Source: Prochlorococcus sp. AG-311-J23 | Lineage (GTDB): Bacteria; Cyanobacteriota; Cyanobacteriia; PCC-6307; Cyanobiaceae | Length of the DNA: 43,454 nt | Direction of reading: 5' to 3' | NCBI GenBank assembly: GCA_003284375.1 | Contig: QBVL01000010.1 | Span: 1-43,454, forward strand | In this document: positions 10,101-43,454 of the stretch, piece after piece | How the letters are laid out: each line of letters begins with the position of its first letter | Position numbering within the stretch: the first letter of the stretch is position 1 | The notes under the pieces: model-generated | Told to the model about the DNA's origin: nothing | The model's input: only the letters and a program-made list of their open reading frames with translations | Databases searched by the model: none | Translations under genes and position numbers: made by a program

Positions 10101-10474
10101 TTAAGGGCAGTAAAACCCAGTCCACCACTCAAAATGCTTGTTCCCCGAATGTTCCAAGTAGGAATTCAAGTGCCAAGGTGACAGGGATTTGAAGAGTAAG
10201 TTCCCCGTCTGTTCCCCGTGATAAAATAGGGGGACAAATCCCTGTCCACCACTTAATTTTTTCCACAGGTGCTATTGAGTGGGAATGACTTGTCTACTAA
10301 AAGGTAGATATAGTCTAAAAAATAGGGTTTGTCACAAGTTCGATTTCTGATAATAGGTAATGAAATAACAGGGATTTAACCCCTTGTGTTTGTCACGGGT
10401 TTGTCAAGTGACCTAGTCAGCGTCTTCATGAAGAAATCGTAGAAAGATTAAATCTTTTTATGTTGTGGAAGTTT
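10101..10474. other. Non-coding flank between guaA and the first cassette gene
   Basis: No gene is visible. The stretch carries guaA-tail copy 2, TTCCCCG motifs at about 10141, 10201 and 10213, TTTGTCAC at 10328, and the double motif TTTGTCACGGGTTTGTCA at 10389-10406. A conserved block around 10421-10449 contains the palindrome TCTTCATGAAGA. The same series recurs in the same order at 12277-12607 with one internal deletion. This resembles a recombination-site region with repeated protein-binding arms; that reading is inference. Confidence 0.6.
10272..10286 (+). repeat. guaA 3'-end direct repeat, copy 2
   Basis: CTATTGAGTGGGAAT is identical to the guaA end over 15 bases, then TGA instead of TAG. 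Read in the guaA frame the preceding bases give S-T-G-A-I-E-W-E-stop, like a GuaA C-terminus from a different allele (the native one is P-G-T-I-E-W-E). It lies 188 bases after copy 1 in the same orientation. Confidence 0.85.
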
Positions 10475-10633
10475 TCAATTCTCCTTTTTCGAAACCCAGA
10501 ACTGATACATACCTGCGAAAGTGTTGGGATGTTTTTCTTCAAACTTTGCCCAGTTTTGTAAGTTTGTTTGCTTCTTATCTTCTGGGAAATATTTCTTGTA
10601 GCGAGATTTGCTTGGATGAAACTTAACTTTTGT
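10475..10633 (-). pseudogene. Remnant C-terminus of a TPR-methyltransferase gene
   Basis: Read on the minus strand from just after the stop of the SGNH-type gene, this stretch encodes about 52 codons containing KKYFPEDKKQTNLQNWAKFE and KHPNTFAGMYQFWV. These match, nearly residue for residue, the last 45 residues of the intact TPR-methyltransferase encoded at 12608-15202. No start codon or methyltransferase core is present here. It is therefore a leftover 3' end, probably produced when an SGNH domain replaced the methyltransferase domain upstream. The shared downstream flank supports common ancestry of the two loci. Confidence 0.85.
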
Positions 10634-11999
10634 GTAGATAATTTTCAAATAGAATAGAAAGACATTTAGGGGAAAGGTGAGTTCTATCGCACATATGAAG
10701 GTTGTTATTTTCTCCATCCTTATTTGATGTCAAAGCATAAACATCTAAAAAACAGGAACCCCTAGATAAGACTTCTATTTTTAAAATTGAATTGTATAAT
10801 TTGACCATCTCAATTCTCTTTATATCTAATTCATCAAGTGATTCTTTTCTTCTTGAAGGTGCTGGAATACCAAAGTAATATTTGTTTGAGTAATTTGGAG
10901 TTAGTTTTTCTTCCATATAATCCAGATAACCTTTAATGGTTGTTTCACATACTTCTGAAATATCTTTATTTTTCTTGATTGAGTAAGTAAGTATACCTTC
11001 GTCTTTCCTACAATCTATCTCCCCAAAAGAAATAAATACTTCTTCACTATAGTTATGATTTTTCATCTGTTTAGTTAGAGAATCTTTCCATTTATTATTT
11101 TTGTTATTAGCAAAATGCCACGCTTTCCCGCCTGTTATTAAAACGGGTTGAATAGTTTTCACTTGTGATGATATAGATAGATTTTGATGAGCAAAAGAAA
11201 GACAATGACTTTCTCCAAAATGAGGTATTTCTTTTGATTCAGGGTGTTTATTCTCTTTCTCAAGTAGAGGATAGAGTGAGGTGATAAATCTGGAGAAAGT
11301 TAATGCCTGCTTTTTATTTTTTTCATCTTTAATAGTATTGATTGCTCCTTGAGTTATTAAATCGTTAGTTTTTTTTATGCTTAATTGGGTTTTTGAAAAA
11401 TCCTTTTGCAGTAAATTGCTAATTGTGATCCGTAATGAAGCGAGTAACTTATATCCTTGATTGATGGATTTTGATTCAAGTGTTGATTCAGATAAGTGAA
11501 GTAATTCTTCTAACTTGCCAAGATCTCTCAATATGTTTCCCAGATTGTAATGAGCATCTGCGAAATCAGGTTTGATTTCAATTGCTTTTCTAGTAGATAA
11601 TTCTGCTTCTTGTAAGTTACCAAGATCTCTCAATATGTTTCCCAGATTGTAATGAGCATCTGCGAAATCAGGTTTGATTTCAATTGCTTTGCGGTATAAG
11701 ACTTCTGCGTCTTGTAATTTTCCAAGATTTTTTAATATGATTCCATAATTAGAAAAAACCCTATGATCATTGAAACCTTGATTAATAAAAAGTTGATAAT
11801 ATTTTGCTGCTTCTGGAATATTTCCTTTTAGATGAAACTGCATTGCTTGCTTAATTATTTGTTCTTTAGAAGGTGTAGAAGGACTATTGGTATTAATAGT
11901 AATATTGGTTTTGATTTCACCGAAAGCAAATGGAACTGGGAATGTTTTAATTTCATTCACTTTCTTCTTTCCTTCTCCTTTTTGACTAGAACTATTCAT
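10623..11999 (-). CDS. TPR protein with C-terminal SGNH-hydrolase-like domain
   Basis: The 458-residue protein has three parts. Residues 1-45 are the family leader (KKKV, then FPVPFAFGEIKTNI). TPR units occupy about 45-190, two of them almost identical. A C-terminal domain from about 255 has GESHCLSFAH (GDS-like, candidate nucleophile Ser264), FISFGEIDCR at about 323-332 and CDRTHLSP with Asp438 and His441, the block pattern of SGNH/GDSL hydrolases and acyltransferase-like relatives. The substrate is unknown; an acyl or glycan ester is plausible. There is no signal peptide, so it is likely cytoplasmic or membrane-associated. It is the first cassette after guaA; its stop abuts a methyltransferase remnant, which indicates domain exchange. 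Confidence 0.8.
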   Translation of the reverse strand: MNSSSQKGEGKKKVNEIKTFPVPFAFGEIKTNITINTNSPSTPSKEQIIKQAMQFHLKGNIPEAAKYYQLFINQGFNDHRVFSNYGIILKNLGKLQDAEVLYRKAIEIKPDFADAHYNLGNILRDLGNLQEAELSTRKAIEIKPDFADAHYNLGNILRDLGKLEELLHLSESTLESKSINQGYKLLASLRITISNLLQKDFSKTQLSIKKTNDLITQGAINTIKDEKNKKQALTFSRFITSLYPLLEKENKHPESKEIPHFGESHCLSFAHQNLSISSQVKTIQPVLITGGKAWHFANNKNNKWKDSLTKQMKNHNYSEEVFISFGEIDCRKDEGILTYSIKKNKDISEVCETTIKGYLDYMEEKLTPNYSNKYYFGIPAPSRRKESLDELDIKRIEMVKLYNSILKIEVLSRGSCFLDVYALTSNKDGENNNLHMCDRTHLSPKCLSILFENYLHKS

Positions 12000-12259
12000 C
12001 TTCTATGATCTGTGCTCTCTTTTAGTCTTTCCGATTTTACTGCTATTCTTGTAACTATTAGTTCTTTCCAAAATCATTTACCACTTATAGAGGAAGATTA
12101 ATAAATATTTTCAATCAACTTTCTACGATTATTCAGAAAATCAACTCATAGACTAGAACTAATTCTGTTCATTTCTGAACTTTGTCAGTTTGTCACGGGT
12201 TTGTCACGATCAAATAATCCTTGAGAATCCAGTTATATCTTCATTCTTTTTGGTAGGGA

Positions 12260-12276
12260 CTATCGAGTGGGAATAG
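12260..12276 (+). repeat. guaA 3'-end direct repeat, copy 3
   Basis: CTATCGAGTGGGAATAG, 16 of 17 bases as in guaA. It is preceded by TAGGGA, as is copy 5, and followed by TTTAGGGCAATAAAACGTAGTC, which matches the tail after the native guaA stop. Confidence 0.9.
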
Positions 12277-12387
12277 TTTAGGGCAATAAAACGTAGTCAA
12301 CTACTCAAAGTGCTTGTTCCCCGTATGTTCTCCGTGACAAAATAGGGGGGCAAATCCCTTTCCAACACTCAATTTTTCCCACAGGTT

Positions 12388-12404
12388 CTATTGAGTGGGA
12401 ATAG
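12388..12404 (+). repeat. guaA 3'-end direct repeat, copy 4
   Basis: CTATTGAGTGGGAATAG, identical to the native guaA end over 17 bases. In the guaA frame the preceding bases read P-T-G-S-I-E-W-E-stop. It corresponds in position to copy 2 of the previous unit (CCACAGGT before it in both). Confidence 0.9.
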
Positions 12405-12607
12405 TCAATAGGCACAGAACTCAGTTATAAGTTGAAAGTGGTAGTTTCTAACAAGTTCGCTTCCTGATATTAAGTGACGAAACAAGAAGGATTTAAAGTC
12501 TCGTGTTTGTTACGGGTTTGTTGAGTGACCTTGTTCGCGTCTTCATGAAGAAATCGTAGAAAGATGCTTTTCTCTTCACAATCAAATGTTTCTTGCTTTA
12601 GAAGTTG

Positions 12608-15202
12608 TTAACTCTCCAACCTAGCAACCCAAAACTGATACATACCTGCGAAGGTATTGGGATGTTTTTCTTCAAATCTTGCCCAGTTTTGTAAGTTCGT
12701 TTGCTTCTTATCTTCTGGGAAATATTGCTCATAGAGAGATTTAATTTGTTTTGGAAGTGAGAATCCAAGAAACTTTAATTCATTAGATTTGAGAGCTTCT
12801 TGTAATTGGTTAATGGTGAATCTATGTTCCTGTTCGTGAAAGCAAAGATCACGGCAAGAAGAGAGTGTATAAAAATCAGGACTATTTGTGAGAGATTTCA
12901 ATGCTGGTGTGTCACCCGAAAAGATAGTTTCTCTAAAATCTTTGATGTCTTCATCATTTGGTTTAAGATTTTTAGTGGCAATATACTCTCTTGCTTTCGC
13001 AACATCTTTTCTTGCTAATTCACTATATAAACCCAATCTAAGAAAACCATTATTGTTTAAAACATCTACTAATACTGTCAACCCTTGTAATGGATTATTC
13101 ATATGGTGTAAAACACCTGAACATTCAATCACATCAAATTCTTCTTTGAGTAAACTTACTTCTAATATATCCATCTCAATCAGTTCAACATTATCAATCC
13201 CAAGTTCATTTATTTTCCTTTGAGTATAAGCAAGACTAGATAAACTTAAATCTATAGCAGTTATTTGAGCATTCTTATACCTTTGTGCCTGCAAGATTTG
13301 ATTGCCAGTTCCACACCCAGCAATAAGAACTTTTAATTGATTATTATCTATACTTTGTCTTATATAATTAGGAGTAATTTCAATATTAATTGCTTGAATA
13401 ATAGATGTTTTTTGATTTGTTTGGTGACTGCTATATCTCCATCTAGGGTATGGATTTTCTTCGTATTGAGACTTGACTTTTTTAGAAATATTATCATTAA
13501 TTGACCCTAATTTTTTGATGTTTTTAGATAATCTAATTTCTTTTATAGGTTCTATAATTTGTAACTCAAGCAGCTCTTTGAAACTTTGATTAGAAGAATT
13601 AAAAGATGTTAACGATGGTATTTGATTAAGAAGTTTATATAGTGGAAAATAACAAGATAAAATTGAAATATTTAATTCACTTAATTCATTATCTTGACAC
13701 CTTTGGATAATGCTTTTTAGAGATAATTTTTCTTCTTCTGTTAGTGAGTAAACATATTCATTAAGGAAGCATTGCTCTCCTAATGCAATAATTAATTGCA
13801 ATTCAGAGTAACTTATTTCTTCTTTATTGTTGGTAATTTTACTGCATAAATATTTTCTTACATTGGTTAGCATATTCTCTAATCTAATATCCTGAAAAAT
13901 TATTTTTTTAAGTGCATTAACTATGACTTTGTTATTTACAAGTAAATCTATATTAGAAAAGCTTGAATCTAATTTTTCTAGACTCATGATCATTTCATTA
14001 CTATATAAAAAGTTAAAGGCTCTTGTTAATTCCTTATGGGAAATATCATTCTTTTCTAGCAGAAGATTTATTATATTTTTTAATTTTGATTTATTTAATT
14101 GGGATGGATCTGAATCTTTTAGCAATTTTGCTATTGAGGGATAAATATTAGAAAGTTTTGGATTGATATCAATAGCTTTTAGATAAGTATCAAATGCTTC
14201 TTTTGATTTGCAAAGATTTTTTAATACATTTCCCAGGTTTAAATGTGCCTTTGCGAAATCAGGTTTGATAGTAATTGCTTTGCGGTATGACAATTCTGCT
14301 TGCTCACTTTTACCAAGATCATTAAATATATTTCCCAGGTTTGAATGTGCCTCTGCGTAATCAGGTTTAATTTTAATTGCTTTGCGGTATGACAATTCTG
14401 CGTCTTGTAAGTTACCAAGATCTCTCAATACATTTCCCAGATTGTAATGCTGTTTTGCGTAATCAGGTTTAATTTTAATTGCTTTGCGGTATGACAATTC
14501 TGCTTGTTCACTTTTGCCAAGATCATGCAATACTTTTCCCAGGTTTGAATGTGCTTCTGCGAAGTCAGGTTTAATTTCAATTGCTTTGCGGTATGACAAT
14601 TCTGCGTCTTGTAAGTTACCAAGATCTCTCAATACATTTCCCAGATTGTAATGCGCTTCTGCGTAATCAGGTTTGATTTCAATTGCTTTGCGGTATGACA
14701 ATTCTGCTTGTTTACTTTTACCAAGATCATCCAATATATTTCCCAGGTTGTAATGCGCTTCTGCGAGGTCAGGTTTAATTTGAATTGCTTTGCGGTATGA
14801 CAATTCTGCGTCTTGTAAGTTACCAAGATCATTCAATATATTTCCCAGGTTGTAATGCGCTTCTGCATAATCAGGATTGATTTCAATTGCTTTGCGAGTA
14901 AATAATTCTGCTTCTTGTAATTTGCCAAGATTTTTTAATATATTTCCATAATTAGAAAAAACCCTTTGATCTTTGAATCCTTGATCAATAAAATATAGAT
15001 AATATTTTGCTGCTTCTGCAATATTGCCTTGTGAATGACACTTAAATGCTTGATTGATTATTTGTTCTTTAGAAGGTTTAGAAGGAGCATTAGCCTTAAT
15101 AATAATATTTTCTTTTTTTTCTCCTAAAGCGAAAGGAACTGTAAATATTTTTACTTCAGTGACTTTCTTCTTTTCTCCTCTTTCTTTACTAGACCTATCC
15201 AT
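12608..15202 (-). CDS. TPR protein with C-terminal SAM-dependent methyltransferase domain
   Basis: The 864-residue protein has the family leader at 1-45 (KKKV, FTVPFALGEKKENI). About nine TPR units follow from 47 to 350 (NLGN.L.DLG...AELSYRKAI.IKPD.AEAH), then a helical linker. The class I methyltransferase domain begins near residue 590 with NPYPRW; motif I is VLIAGCGTG at 625-633, followed by AIDLS and VLHHM. The tail NTFAGMYQFWV is shared with the remnant at 10475. It probably methylates a protein or glycan partner recruited by the TPR region; the target is unknown. TPR units 2-7 alternate between two types, showing duplication of a two-unit, 204-base block. It is the second cassette, bounded by guaA-tail copies 3/4 and 5. 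Confidence 0.85.
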   Translation of the reverse strand: MDRSSKERGEKKKVTEVKIFTVPFALGEKKENIIIKANAPSKPSKEQIINQAFKCHSQGNIAEAAKYYLYFIDQGFKDQRVFSNYGNILKNLGKLQEAELFTRKAIEINPDYAEAHYNLGNILNDLGNLQDAELSYRKAIQIKPDLAEAHYNLGNILDDLGKSKQAELSYRKAIEIKPDYAEAHYNLGNVLRDLGNLQDAELSYRKAIEIKPDFAEAHSNLGKVLHDLGKSEQAELSYRKAIKIKPDYAKQHYNLGNVLRDLGNLQDAELSYRKAIKIKPDYAEAHSNLGNIFNDLGKSEQAELSYRKAITIKPDFAKAHLNLGNVLKNLCKSKEAFDTYLKAIDINPKLSNIYPSIAKLLKDSDPSQLNKSKLKNIINLLLEKNDISHKELTRAFNFLYSNEMIMSLEKLDSSFSNIDLLVNNKVIVNALKKIIFQDIRLENMLTNVRKYLCSKITNNKEEISYSELQLIIALGEQCFLNEYVYSLTEEEKLSLKSIIQRCQDNELSELNISILSCYFPLYKLLNQIPSLTSFNSSNQSFKELLELQIIEPIKEIRLSKNIKKLGSINDNISKKVKSQYEENPYPRWRYSSHQTNQKTSIIQAINIEITPNYIRQSIDNNQLKVLIAGCGTGNQILQAQRYKNAQITAIDLSLSSLAYTQRKINELGIDNVELIEMDILEVSLLKEEFDVIECSGVLHHMNNPLQGLTVLVDVLNNNGFLRLGLYSELARKDVAKAREYIATKNLKPNDEDIKDFRETIFSGDTPALKSLTNSPDFYTLSSCRDLCFHEQEHRFTINQLQEALKSNELKFLGFSLPKQIKSLYEQYFPEDKKQTNLQNWARFEEKHPNTFAGMYQFWVARLES
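14245..14860 (-). repeat. Tandem TPR-coding repeats with a 204-base higher-order period
   Basis: The basic period is 102 bases (one 34-residue TPR). Units alternate between a NLQDAE type and a KS(K/E)QAE type, so the true repeating block is 204 bases and occurs three times. Neighbouring blocks are almost identical in DNA, with phrases such as TTGCGGTATGACAATTCTGC recurring at fixed spacing. This points to recent unequal exchange. Confidence 0.85.
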
Positions 15203-15588
15203 CTTCTCTTGTGTCTCTTCAGATTTTACTAATAATTTGAACCCTTACTAATTCTTTATAAAATTATTTACAACTTATTGAGGAAGCTTCATAAATATTT
15301 TCAATGAACTTTCTACGATTATTCAGAAAATAAACTCATATACGAGAAGGGATTCTGTCTATTTCTGAACTTTGTCAGTTTGTCATGGGGTTGTCACGAT
15401 CAAATAATTCTTGAGAATTCAGTTATATTTTCATTCTTTTTGCTAGGGACTATTGAGTGGGAATAGTTTAATTTTAGGGCAGGGAAACCCAGTCAAAAAC
15501 AAAAAATATACTTATCTATCGAATAATTAGGAGAGAAAGCTTTTTCAGTCCTTATTAATTTGAATAGTTGCTTGAGATTATATGCTTT
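15203..15588. other. Junction between cassette 2 and cassette 3, non-coding
   Basis: No gene is visible. 15203-15449 is the upstream region of the methyltransferase gene and aligns with 12000-12259, with TTTGTCATGGGGTTGTCACG at 15379-15398. guaA-tail copy 5 follows, then a shortened tail containing GGGCAGGGAAACCCAGTC. From about 15500 the sequence no longer matches the other units. Confidence 0.65.
15450..15466 (+). repeat. guaA 3'-end direct repeat, copy 5
   Basis: CTATTGAGTGGGAATAG, identical to guaA over 17 bases, preceded by TAGGGA. The following tail keeps GGGCAG..AAACCCAGTC after a short insertion. This is the last copy seen; no further one is found up to 23283. Confidence 0.9.
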
Positions 15589-17292
15589 TCAGTTTTGAGT
15601 TTTTTGTGCTAAATCAAATACTACACATATACGATCTTCATTTCCTTGAAAAGGAATAGTATGGTGGAATAGAGATGAGGGAAAAATACAAATATCTCTA
15701 GTCTCTATTTTTTTAATTGTTGAATCGAAACTTTTGTCTTTCTTGGGATATTCAGGACCTTGGTAGCTAAAAGATATATTGCCTGCGTTATTGTTATTAG
15801 TATTTTTTGGAACATTAAGATAAAAGCTGCCAGTTATCCATCCGTATCTATGATTATGCGGTTTGATGAATCCTCCATTTTTCATACAAAGTATCCATGA
15901 ACGCAGTGTATATACTGTAGGCCAATTTTCGATAAAACCTTGTTGACTATCTTTAAAGTTTGTCTTGTAATGTTTGATCTTAATTTCTATTGCTTTTTTT
16001 AGTGCTTTAATAAATGGAAAGTCTAATAAAAATAAATTACCTGTACTCTGTGAGGCTTTATGAATAAGTGATTGAGGTTTTGTTTTAAGTTCATTGCTTT
16101 TAATATATGAGATAAGTTGGCAAAAATGTTTATCGGAGAATAATTGTTCATCTATTTTTTCCAGAAGTATATAGTTAATTGATTCATTGCAGAAATGTGA
16201 TTCGTTTTTTTGCTCGTAAATAATATTGGCATGTTCAACAATTCCACTCATATCAGCATTACATATTTTCTTATGATAGAGCTCTTTATATTTTTGATTA
16301 AAATCGTCTTTTCTATCAAGACATAATAAACAACTTAAATATAAACTTTGACAATTATAAGATTTATTTTTCTGTAGACATTGTATTGCTAAATCATATT
16401 TTTTATCAAGATAAAGTCGTCTCGCTAATTCTTCAACAGCATATGTCAAGCTGGGTTCTAAGTTAATTGCTTTCCGTAGAGACAATTCTGCGTCATAGTG
16501 ATTACCAAGATTAATTAATATCATTCCTAGGTTGTAATGTGCCTTTGCGAAATTAGGATTGAGTTCAATAGCTTTTCGAGTCGACCATTCTGCTTCCTGT
16601 AATCTGCCAAGATCACTCAATATGTTACCCAGATTCGAATGAGGCTCAGCTTTATTAGGATTGAGTTCAATAGCTTTTCGAGTCGACCATTCTGCTTCTT
16701 TTAAATTACCAAGATCTCTCAATATATTTCCTAGATTTAGATGGGCATCAGTGAAATCAGGATTGATTTCAATAGATTTGCGAATCGATAATTCTGCTTC
16801 TTTTAAATTACCAAGATCCTTCAAGATTCTTCCAAAATTGTAATGAGCATTTGCGAAATTAGGTTTAATTTCAATTGCTTTTAGATAAGAATCAAATGCT
16901 TCTTTTAATTTGCCAAGATCTTTTAGTATGATTCCCAGATTGTAATACGCTTCTGCGTAATCAGGTTTGATTTCAATTGCTTTGCGGTATAACAGTTCTG
17001 CTTCTTTTAAGTTGCCAAGACTTTTTAAAATTATTCCATAATTAGAGAAAACTCTATGATCTTTAAACCCTTTATTGATAAAATACTGATAACATTTTGC
17101 GGCTTCTGAAATGTTTCCTTGTGAATGAAACAATAATGCTTGATTAATTATTTGTTCTTGTGTTGGTTTAGTAGGAGTGTTAGTTGAAATAGAAATATTC
17201 TCTTTTATTTCTCCTAAAGCAAATGGAACTGGAAATGTAGTTACTTCAAAGACTTTCTTTTTTCTTTGATCTTTGTCACCAGAGTATTTCAT
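15589..17292 (-). CDS. TPR protein with C-terminal 2-oxoglutarate/Fe(II) oxygenase-like domain
   Basis: The start at 17292 is chosen because it gives MKYSGDKDQRKKKV, aligning with the N-termini of the two other TPR genes; an open frame continues to 17346 but adds an unrelated 18 residues. The 567-residue product has the leader (FPVPFALGEIKENI) and six to seven TPR units to about residue 270. A middle region without a known match follows. The C-terminal domain has PHNHRYGWITGSFYLNVP (candidate iron ligand around His479/481), FPSSLFHHTIP (His543/544) and a conserved Arg at about 554, matching the putative 2OG-Fe(II) oxygenase family (PF13759 type). It likely hydroxylates an unknown target. It is the third gene of the series, but no guaA tail is seen upstream of it. 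Confidence 0.8.
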   Translation of the reverse strand: MKYSGDKDQRKKKVFEVTTFPVPFALGEIKENISISTNTPTKPTQEQIINQALLFHSQGNISEAAKCYQYFINKGFKDHRVFSNYGIILKSLGNLKEAELLYRKAIEIKPDYAEAYYNLGIILKDLGKLKEAFDSYLKAIEIKPNFANAHYNFGRILKDLGNLKEAELSIRKSIEINPDFTDAHLNLGNILRDLGNLKEAEWSTRKAIELNPNKAEPHSNLGNILSDLGRLQEAEWSTRKAIELNPNFAKAHYNLGMILINLGNHYDAELSLRKAINLEPSLTYAVEELARRLYLDKKYDLAIQCLQKNKSYNCQSLYLSCLLCLDRKDDFNQKYKELYHKKICNADMSGIVEHANIIYEQKNESHFCNESINYILLEKIDEQLFSDKHFCQLISYIKSNELKTKPQSLIHKASQSTGNLFLLDFPFIKALKKAIEIKIKHYKTNFKDSQQGFIENWPTVYTLRSWILCMKNGGFIKPHNHRYGWITGSFYLNVPKNTNNNNAGNISFSYQGPEYPKKDKSFDSTIKKIETRDICIFPSSLFHHTIPFQGNEDRICVVFDLAQKTQN

Positions 17293-18179
17293 CTGTACTT
17301 TTCTATCTTTTGACATCAAGTATTTTACTACTAGGACCCCAATCATTGTTGTTTCATTTTGAGTGCTATAAAGTAGCAGTCTCTTTGAACTATTGCCTGC
17401 GATATATCAAAGTTAATGACGTCTATAAGAAGTTTTTAGTTCACAATCGACTCTTATTAGTTTCACACAAGGTTTTAACAATATCAAATGCTAAAATTTC
17501 TTTTTGATAATAAGGGATATTGACCTTAATATTATCAGAGATTTTATTAAGAGAGAATATTATCGACTACTAGAACTTAGTTATAGTCAAAAAATACACT
17601 TTAATACGACTTGCATGTGAAGAATGAAGTGACAGAGTGAGAGGGGTTTTTACAAACTACTTCCACTTGGCACTGTCTCTACCACTGAGATCACTTTTAC
17701 ACTGAATAATAACCATATGAATAGATTGCTTTTAGGTGAGACATCTAAAGGGATTTTTGTTACTGAACTGACTCTCCACTAACTCCTAATAATTAGAAAT
17801 AAGTTTATTCCAAGTTTCATGGATACTTTGATAATCCAGTCTTTTTGTATTTTTGGATTTGCTTGGGACCCTTTACACTGAAATTTTTGAAGGCTCCTAG
17901 TGATTAGGCTGTATGAGAAGGATGCTCTGGTTCTACATCCAGTTAAATTGACTGATAATTTTTTGCTGTTTCTTTCAAGATCGATCTTTGATAATCATTT
18001 CATGCCCATGATCAACTTAAGAATTTGCGTTAAAGAGGGGGGGGTGAGGTTTTGGCCAACCTTTTTAGTTCAGCACGAATGTATTTAACTGAACATTCAG
18101 ATCTGACTAACTAACCTTTTACTGGAACTTAAGTGCTAGAGCTCCTAATTCATTTCTAACAAATCTCGATTAGGTGAAT
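17293..18179. other. Long non-coding stretch without recognisable gene
   Basis: About 890 bases between the oxygenase gene and the first small acidic protein gene. Open frames here are short and have poor coding character. A segment near 17563-17595 faintly resembles the flank after guaA-tail copy 2 (TAGTTATAGTC followed by A-rich sequence), which could be a decayed unit end, but the match is too weak to claim. A run of eight G lies at about 18037. Confidence 0.4.
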
Positions 18180-18724: not shown

Positions 18725-18925
18725 ATGGCAAGAACGGAAAATGATCTTGATGTTTACTTTGCAGTAGGTAATGCTAATACCTCAAGGCAGGAAAATGAAA
18801 TTGGAGAAATCATTAAAAAAAGAAATTCATTGGGATGGAAATTAGTTTCTACCAGTACAGCGGTTGTTGATACGAGCAAGCAATTCTCTAACCTCTATCT
18901 TTTTTGGGAAAAAAGCTATGAGTAA
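18725..18925 (+). CDS. Small DUF4177-like protein
   Basis: A 66-residue cytoplasmic protein. The layout is a beta-strand at the start (LDVYFAVGN), a helix (RQENEIGEIIKKRNSLG), then GWKLVSTSTAV and a final strand LYLFWEKS. The G-W-x-L-V-S pattern followed by a strand ending in an aromatic residue is typical of DUF4177-like small proteins, whose role is unknown. The gene stands alone, about 120 bases after the acidic protein gene on the same strand. Confidence 0.6.
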   Translation: MARTENDLDVYFAVGNANTSRQENEIGEIIKKRNSLGWKLVSTSTAVVDTSKQFSNLYLFWEKSYE

Positions 18926-19075: not shown

Positions 19076-19168
19076 CAAAAAAACCTGCTTTAAAGCAGGT
19101 TCTTTTATGAAATCAGGCGCAAGTGTTTCCATGTTTCCACTGCGGAGGATCTCAACTCCTCACACTTT
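19076..19168 (-). ncRNA. yfr2: Yfr2-family small RNA, copy 1
   Basis: On the minus strand the sequence starts near GTGTGAGGAGTTGAGATCC (a 5' hairpin GGAGTTGAGATCCTCC). It then has two GGAAACA motifs (19138-19132 and 19130-19124) followed by CTTGCGCC. It ends in a perfect stem AACCTGCTTTAAAGCAGGTT (19082-19101) and a run of T. The paired GGAAACA motif after a 5' hairpin is the hallmark of the Yfr2-5 RNAs of marine cyanobacteria, as I recall. The ends are estimated. Its 5' part contains the exact complement of the Yfr1 core motif found in the neighbouring RNA. Confidence 0.8.
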
Positions 19169-19242
19169 TAAGATACTGGAACAAGATTAGTAGTAAACGC
19201 TTCGCAGGTGAGTTTTAAGATTGGCACACGTGTTAAATGTAC

Positions 19243-19312
19243 TAAAAAAGCACCCTATTGGATGCTCTTAAAGCACAGAACTATGTGTGAGGAGTTGTTC
19301 TGCATACCCTTT
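19243..19312 (-). ncRNA. Yfr1-like small RNA
   Basis: The minus strand carries ACTCCTCACAC (19295-19285), the 11-base core conserved in Yfr1. Here it sits in the loop of a hairpin closed by CAGAAC/GTTCTG. It is followed by the terminator hairpin GCATCCAATAGGGTGC and a T run (19265-19245); the stem contains a G-U pair possible only on the minus strand, supporting that direction. Canonical Yfr1 presents the core unpaired between two stems, so this is a variant or paralogue, not the standard locus. In Prochlorococcus, Yfr1 is known to pair with porin mRNAs. Confidence 0.65.
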
Positions 19313-19552
19313 CTAATCTACCCGATACAAAGATGGGTAAAACAGAAATAATCTCTTAAATATTGAACAAATATCTGCTAGGGGTATAAAAAAGTAAGAT
19401 ATTTTCTACTCTGTGGGGATCAGAACTTTTTTCTTAAAATTACTTTTATACGGTTATCGTTTGATAAATTAGGTTAGGCATCCCTTTCTATTAATACGTT
19501 TTCAACTCCACTCTACGAAAAAATATTTTTTATATTCATAAGTTTTGATTCG

Positions 19553-20433: not shown

Positions 20434-20640
20434 GTGGCATTTTCATTAATTTGATCCTCAACTAATTCCCAACTATTGCAAGTCAGTTCTCTTAGAGTTT
20501 TTTATTACCTAAATCGATCTCTTTTGTGTATTTAATTTGGTTGGAGTTCCTTCAATCCTCCCTTAGAAAAGTTGACAAAAAAATGAAAAGATTAATTGCA
20601 TCAAATAAAGTCTTAGTTGATTGAAAGACAATTAAAGATT

Positions 20641-21003
20641 ATGGATGAAGATTGGTTGAAAGAACTCAATAAAAAAAATCTTTTTCTTGAAGAAGAAGAC
20701 TGTTCTAAATCGGATTTTGCAACCGTCACGCTATCCTCTTCGGTCTTAGATAAATTAAGTAAGGAAGAGCAAGCGAAATTTCAAATTACTGAGTTTAAAC
20801 GAGCGACTAATGAAATTGAACATTGGGCTAGGGTAGAAGAAATATGCGATTTTTTCGGCGTTGAAGACCCAGATTTAGCTGGAGATATATATGTAAGAAA
20901 GTTTAAAAATTTAACTTCAGATGAGGAGATTAAATGGATGGATTTAAGAGAGATTAGTGAAGATATACCCGATGGCTTTGGAGTTAAAGTTGATTGGGGA
21001 TAG
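20641..21003 (+). CDS. Small acidic cytoplasmic protein, paralogue of the 18180 gene
   Basis: 120 residues from the ATG at 20641 (MDEDWLKELNKKNL). An upstream in-frame TTG at 20617 would add eight residues and is less likely. The central part TVTLSSSVLDKLSKEEQAKF and FFGVEDPDLAGD mirrors the layout of the protein at 18180-18605: a strand, a K-E-rich helix, then an acidic GVED segment. It is negatively charged overall and without a membrane segment. The function is unknown. The pairing of two such proteins in one island suggests a shared lineage-specific role. Confidence 0.6.
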   Translation: MDEDWLKELNKKNLFLEEEDCSKSDFATVTLSSSVLDKLSKEEQAKFQITEFKRATNEIEHWARVEEICDFFGVEDPDLAGDIYVRKFKNLTSDEEIKWMDLREISEDIPDGFGVKVDWG

Positions 21004-22168: not shown

Positions 22169-22301
22169 GTGAGATAGTTAATTTCCACCAGATTAATTGA
22201 TTTGGTGGTGTAACTATTTCAAAAAATTGTCGTGAATACCGTTCTAATTACTTGCTTTGAATTTTGCTTTTTTTTAATTTAAATAAACACATTAAATAAA
22301 C

Positions 22302-22395
22302 AAAAAAAAACGCCTTGTTCTGAGCAAAGTGGTTTTCTTAGAGATTAAGCGTAAGGGTTTCCTTGTTCCCACTGCGGAGGATCTCAACTCCTCAC
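22302..22395 (-). ncRNA. yfr2: Yfr2-family small RNA, copy 2
   Basis: The minus strand reads TTTGTGAGGAGTTGAGATCC followed by TCCGCAGTGGGAACAAGG, then AAACCCTTACGC. It shares the 5' hairpin (GGAGTTGAGATCCTCC) and motif spacing with copy 1, although the two GGAAACA motifs have changed to GGGAACA and GGAAACC. It ends at an imperfect stem CACTTTG/CAAGGCG followed by nine T. The ends are estimated from the terminator and the 5' hairpin. Confidence 0.7.
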
Positions 22396-22485
22396 AAACA
22401 CACATTTGCGTATCTGATAAAAAACTCAAATATGAGCAGGTTAGTGTATTGATGTTGACATGTGATACTTCTTGAAAGGAGTCAT

Positions 22486-22560
22486 TAAAAAAACACCCTG
22501 CTTGCAAGAAGATGGGTGTTCTTTAAACAGAACAATTGTGTGAAAAGAGTTGTCCTATTA
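22486..22560 (-). ncRNA. Yfr1-like small RNA, degenerate copy
   Basis: Minus strand: hairpin AGGACAA...TTGTTCT, with a G-U pair that fits only this strand, then the terminator AACACCC...GGGTGTT (22520-22514 with 22498-22492) and a T run. The loop has ACTCTTTTCACAC where copy 1 has ACTCCTCACAC, so the Yfr1 core is interrupted. The same layout and position upstream of a Yfr2-like RNA show that it is a duplicate of the 19243-19312 element. Confidence 0.5.
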
Positions 22561-42554: not shown

Positions 42555-43454
42555 TTAAAAAATAGAAGTATTTATTTCGCTCTTTTCCTTGAGTTCTGCA
42601 AGTGCATGAACTTCAAGATCATGTTTATACCAATTTTCAGAAGTCCCTTTGATCAGTCCTATTTCTTGTTTTAACCATTTTTTTAATGTTTTCTCGGTAT
42701 CTAACACTTCTTGTCCAGAATAGGGACCTACTGAATCAATCAGGTTCCATCCAAACAAGGAGTGTTGTTTCATTCTTTGAGACAAGTTGTTGGTAACACC
42801 TATCTGTTGCTCTTCTGATCGTTCAAGTAGATAAAACCAAGCAGGTTTATGTGGTTTGAAACCATACTCAGCACAAGTTGGACATCCACATCCTTGAGAG
42901 GATCTGCTTGATATAACTGCATTCCACTGATGACCTTTTTTGCATTTCCATGCTTTTCTTTGTCCGCTATAGCAGAGTAATTGAGATGGATTCCATCCAT
43001 TTGCTTCTTTTGCAATTTCTGGAAAGAGTGTTTCTAAATCATTAAAACCAGGTAGAACTTTTTTATTGGTGCAATAAGGACAATTGGTTTTTAAACCTGT
43101 TCTATTAGCAGGTGTTGCTTTCCAGTTATGACCTTTTTTACATTTCCATTGATATTGTTTATGACTGCCTGGGATGACTTGTGATGGATCCCAACCATGT
43201 GCTTCTGCCGCTATTGAAGGGAATTTAGTTTTTAAGTCGTTGAACCCTGCAAGCACTTTTTGATTCGTGCAATAAGGACAATTTGTCCCTTCAGGTTTTG
43301 TTCTATTAGCAGGTGTTGCTTTCCAGTTATGACCTTTTTTACATTTCCATTGATATTGTTTATGACTGCCTGGGATGACTTGTGATGGATCCCAACCATG
43401 TGCTTCTGCCGCTATTGAAGGGAATTTAGTTTTTAAGTCGTTGAACCCTGCAAG
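42555..43454 (-). CDS. Zinc-ribbon repeat protein with C-terminal GIY-YIG-like nuclease domain (5' end outside window)
   Basis: The frame is open to the right edge, so the start is missing; an apparent GTG start at 43256 lies inside a repeat and is not the real one. Three visible units of about 67 residues each have WKCKKGH and NCPYCTN knuckles with V-L-x-G-F-N-D-L linkers, matching the treble-clef zinc ribbons (PF14311 type) of cyanobacterial and phage proteins. The last about 90 residues, AWFYLLERSEEQQIGVTNNL then SQRMKQH, resemble a GIY-YIG nuclease core. It may be a homing-type or defence nuclease. It starts right after the argJ-tail copy, in the accessory segment. Confidence 0.75.
   Translation of the reverse strand, partial: LAGFNDLKTKFPSIAAEAHGWDPSQVIPGSHKQYQWKCKKGHNWKATPANRTKPEGTNCPYCTNQKVLAGFNDLKTKFPSIAAEAHGWDPSQVIPGSHKQYQWKCKKGHNWKATPANRTGLKTNCPYCTNKKVLPGFNDLETLFPEIAKEANGWNPSQLLCYSGQRKAWKCKKGHQWNAVISSRSSQGCGCPTCAEYGFKPHKPAWFYLLERSEEQQIGVTNNLSQRMKQHSLFGWNLIDSVGPYSGQEVLDTEKTLKKWLKQEIGLIKGTSENWYKHDLEVHALAELKEKSEINTSIF
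43100..43454 (-). repeat. 201-base tandem repeat in the zinc-ribbon gene
   Basis: 43100-43253 and 43301-43454 appear identical over the 154 bases available (the second copy is cut by the window edge). The period is 201 bases, or 67 codons, one zinc-ribbon unit. The third unit (about 42900-43060) is diverged. Confidence 0.85.

Follow-up and report, generated by a model that had tools for sequence, protein, structure and literature searches.

A Yfr10-like small RNA gene upstream of a Yfr2-family RNA gene in Prochlorococcus sp. AG-311-J23

Two short RNA elements carrying complementary motifs lie side by side in Prochlorococcus sp. AG-311-J23, which raises the question of which RNAs they are and whether their adjacency marks a mobile module or an ordinary part of the Yfr circuit. 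They were found in a 43,454-nucleotide stretch of contig QBVL01000010.1 that was analysed as a whole and is referred to here as the window. A sequence-only reading had regarded the two elements as a Yfr1-like RNA next to a Yfr2-like RNA, possibly a mobile module or sponge in an accessory island. Our analysis indicates that the locus very probably consists of a Yfr10-type sRNA gene immediately upstream of a Yfr2-family sRNA gene, with the Yfr2 RNA probably titrating Yfr10/Yfr1.

The downstream element was delimited on the minus strand at positions 19077 to 19169 by covariance model, fold and a symmetric hairpin. Its match to the Rfam family Cyano-1 (RF01701), which corresponds to Yfr2, spanned 19105 to 19169 and model positions 1-69 of 69 and scored 60.2 bits, the gathering score being 41. 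It is thus a full-length family member with no notable difference, and it carries a terminator hairpin at 19082-19101. Near its 5' end, at 19155-19165, lies the motif GUGUGAGGAGU, the complement of the loop of the upstream RNA.

The upstream element is a predicted Yfr10-like sRNA of approximately 67 nt on the minus strand (19243-19309), whose start was inferred from a conserved TAGA or -10-like box and whose end was inferred from a U-run. In the predicted fold of 19309-19243 (MFE -20.3 kcal/mol, z -3.27), a 15-nt loop sits atop a 7-bp stem, with a U-tailed hairpin of 10 bp after it. The loop (19282-19296, closed by stem arms at 19297-19303 and 19275-19281) contains the motif ACUCCUCACAC at 19285-19295, which is shared with Yfr1. 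The terminator-like hairpin and U-run at the 3' end (19246-19269) are recovered by the fold, and both hairpin and T-run are conserved among homologues. Among 49 distinct homologous sequences, the stem remained paired, both sides having changed at pairs 6 and 8, whereas the constancy of the loop motif in this set follows from how the set was constructed. A simple scan for sigma-70-type promoters found none. An alignment of 15 copies revealed that the region upstream of the RNA holds a conserved AATATTTAAGAGATTATTT-like block (19338-19372, minus strand), present in most copies of one subtype, which is a possible promoter or regulator site.

Yfr10 (RF02362) was the best relevant Rfam family for 19243-19309, although its score of 25.6 bits (E 0.21) falls under the gathering cut-off of 43 bits; the RNA is therefore named Yfr10-like by architecture and context rather than as a member of the Rfam family. 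Yfr10 has been described as presenting its motif in the loop of a stem and, in high-light strains, as being encoded upstream of Yfr2 (PMC6778093). Both features were found here, the former in the fold and in the 49 homologous sequences, and the latter as a position upstream of the Yfr2 homologue on the same strand. The cut-off of RF02362 was reached in only two of 41 genomes of the window's genus versus 13 of 16 in the genus of strain MED4, and the model appears, from these sequence scores, to be tuned to high-light strains. Matches to enterobacterial sRNAs in the Rfam search of the locus were attributed to the generic terminator hairpin and discarded.

The geometry of the pair agreed closely with the sequence-only reading, which had placed both elements on the minus strand about 75 bases apart: 73 bases separate the U-run of the Yfr10-like RNA (19243) from the start of the Yfr2-family RNA (19169). 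The proposed 11-base match was likewise recovered, ACTCCTCACAC in the loop of the Yfr10-like RNA (minus strand 19295-19285) being a perfect complement over 11 nt of GTGTGAGGAGT in the 5' part of the Yfr2-family RNA (minus strand 19165-19155), and the assignment of the downstream RNA to Yfr2 was borne out by the covariance model search. Plain duplex energies calculated without accessibility were dominated by the terminators and were no better than those of shuffled sequence; pairing was therefore judged by differences in co-folding. The predicted binding energy of the two RNAs was -12.3 kcal/mol and changed to -2.6 kcal/mol once the UCCU core was altered, a motif dependence that agrees with published mutants altered at the same four bases.

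To place the pair in a wider context, the 11-mer was counted in 41 genomes of the window's genus. In all, 146 copies were identified, comprising 28 in Yfr1, six that are the antisense of Yfr2 and 112 others. Among the latter, 82 were located on the same strand as a Yfr2, 88-351 nt (median 138) upstream of it, and they were spread over 37 of the 41 genomes. A strict geometry pattern for the pair matched 43 stretches in 257 Gb of prokaryote genomes, all of them from Prochlorococcus, and matched none in viral contigs. In alignment, both RNAs formed conserved blocks amid divergent flanks, with further conserved blocks upstream of each. A 66-aa ORF at 18725-18925 is without a Pfam match and recurs next to Yfr2/Yfr10 RNAs in several Prochlorococcus genomes, adjoining the pair at loci L084, L095 and L042.

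Since the upstream RNA carries the 11-nt motif of Yfr1 and the Yfr1 model (RF01116) found no match in the window's assembly, it could be asked whether a true Yfr1 has been relocated beside Yfr2 as this genome's substitute for Yfr1. This is extremely improbable. In Yfr1 the motif is unpaired between the two stem-loops that make up the RNA (PMC2190773), whereas here it lies in a hairpin loop, and RF01116 gave no match at the locus even at E<=10. On these two grounds the Yfr1 identity was rejected; of the earlier description as a Yfr1-like RNA with its motif in a hairpin loop, the loop placement stands and the likeness to Yfr1 gives way to a Yfr10-like anatomy. Moreover, Yfr1 was present in 29 of the 41 genomes, mostly in addition to such pairs. 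The guaB-yfr1-trxA order occurs in a relative (L056), while the window locus has other neighbours in place of guaB and trxA. As the assembly is 77% complete and no guaB resembling that of Yfr1 loci was found in it, the lack of a guaB-yfr1-trxA locus probably reflects a gap in the assembly, and the absence of Yfr1 means little. The related expectation that Yfr1 and Yfr2 are normally encoded apart holds for Yfr1 itself, with its guaB-trxA locus, but not for the adjacent Yfr10-like RNA, given that Yfr10, Yfr12 and Yfr18 are known beside Yfr2, Yfr4 and Yfr5 (PMC2518516, PMC6778093). That the two elements form one structured bipartite transcript instead of two sRNAs is also highly improbable: a joint Yfr10-Yfr2 precursor of 270 nt is known in MED4, but so is a separate mature Yfr10 of 78 nt (PMC2518516), and in the window a terminator-like hairpin with a U-run lies between the two RNAs, each of which has its own conserved upstream block.

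Horizontal acquisition of the pair, as a mobile module or as a sponge carried by an island and titrating the core Yfr1/Yfr2 circuit, would fit the neighbourhood of variable genes, including TPR genes and uncharacterised small ORFs, the several similar copies of the pair per genome, and the location of the MED4 Yfr2 and Yfr10 genes within genomic island 1 (PMC2518516). It is nevertheless very unlikely. The same 66-aa ORF accompanies the pair in other genomes, the neighbours of a second pair in the window are conserved in many loci, the strict search retrieved Prochlorococcus only, and Pfam searches of the neighbouring ORFs gave a single sub-threshold transposase-like match (20617-21003, E 0.004). 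A mobile element was accordingly rejected on the basis of the conserved neighbours and the lack of matches in viral contigs. The mobile RNA module suggested earlier thus found no backing in a pair that occurs in 37 of the 41 genomes and for which one strict pattern gave no match in the viral collection. The search for the pair elsewhere, with 82 such pairs in the genus, revealed a widespread arrangement. The sponge idea survives in part, as complementary RNAs could titrate each other and Yfr2 binds Yfr1 and Yfr10 (PMC6778093), whereas a foreign sponge is unsupported. A hypervariable-region setting of the window pair is plausible, and such a setting is known for island 1 of MED4, but it does not set the pair apart from the core circuit.

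Two sRNAs in the arrangement of Yfr10 and Yfr2 therefore remain our preferred reading, for which anatomy, conservation, recurrence and predicted pairing were established here, and expression, binding and target effects are inferred from the work on MED4. By analogy, the function of the Yfr10-like RNA is likely as in MED4, namely to act on mRNAs via its loop and to be titrated by Yfr2. The exposed Yfr1-type motif would probably regulate a set of mRNAs through the loop. The Yfr2 RNA, complementary in its 5' part, would probably bind the motif of Yfr10/Yfr1 and thereby remove these RNAs from their targets, and when bound it may itself be protected from RNase E, as reported for Yfr2 (PMC6778093). 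The two units may be transcribed separately, in keeping with the terminator-like hairpin between them and the conserved sequence upstream of each; alternatively, there may be partial read-through, as in the 270-nt precursor of MED4.

The genome of the window contains three loci with the exact motif upstream of a Yfr2-like RNA (on contigs C10, C15 and C18) and a fourth pair with a decayed motif. The latter lies in the window itself and comprises, on the minus strand, a Yfr10-like RNA (22485-22560) with the loop ACUCUUUUCACAC instead of ACUCCUCACAC and a Yfr2-family RNA with a U-tailed hairpin (22300-22401, 39.7 bits). Its predicted binding is weaker. Many genomes of the genus have an intact copy at the position orthologous to that of this Yfr10-like RNA, and the pair was interpreted as a decayed orthologue because its flanking genes are the same as those of the intact pairs. 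Conversely, the pair on C15 (locus L003 of genome G000, 1501-1700) has an intact Yfr10-like loop, and its Yfr2 partner (35.1 bits) is without the GUGUGAGGAG motif. With one pair lacking the Yfr10 motif and another lacking the Yfr2 motif, cis partners need not remain matched. It is conceivable, though unlikely, that the pairs of this Prochlorococcus genus constitute a turnover system in which a pair is duplicated as a unit and the motif of one partner is subsequently lost; gaining and losing half-pairs would thus allow each lineage to adjust its dosage of Yfr1-type and Yfr2-type RNAs. Other repeats were observed in the window: several TPR-repeat genes in the region 10200-17350 have long repeats in common, and some of these genes also encode methyltransferase or 2OG-Fe(II) oxygenase domains, while an open frame at the end of the window (42918-43454) contains an internal repeat of 83% over approximately 340 bases.

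The side-by-side arrangement itself has been known since 2008, when Yfr10, Yfr12 and Yfr18 were reported to adjoin Yfr2, Yfr4 and Yfr5 in MED4 (PMC2518516), and binding was tested in 2019, when Yfr2 was found to bind Yfr1 and Yfr10 and to block their action on ppa mRNA (PMC6778093). As a positive control, the Yfr10 model matched positions 346661-346738 in a sister-genus genome (G187), exactly the published coordinates of MED4 Yfr10, followed by a Cyano-1 match at 346826 in the same layout as the window pair. The arrangement is common across these bacteria and the window case is an ordinary one, leaving the known picture of the Yfr circuit unchanged. What it adds to the Yfr10-Yfr2 adjacency published for MED4 and further high-light strains is a second Prochlorococcus genus, in which the adjacency is multi-copy and nearly universal and most of the homologues are missed by the Rfam Yfr10 model. 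The window's lineage may belong to a low-light clade, with NATL2A as a likely laboratory relative. Compared with Yfr1 (RF01116), the upstream RNA shares ACUCCUCACAC but differs from an RNA whose motif is single-stranded between two stem-loops and whose gene is mostly at the guaB-trxA locus. The MED4 pairs Yfr10-Yfr2, Yfr12-Yfr4 and Yfr18-Yfr5 (Steglich 2008; Lambrecht 2019) resemble the window pair in order, strand, placement of the motif in the loop of a stem, the terminator-like hairpin after the motif RNA, the complement near the 5' end of the Yfr2-type RNA, and the presence of several pairs per genome, one of them with a decayed motif. They differ in belonging, by the taxonomy used, to another Prochlorococcus genus, and the Yfr10 part of the window pair scores low with the Rfam model. 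Furthermore, pairing in MED4 requires a bulge and a mismatch, whereas the window pair forms an exact 11-nt complement.
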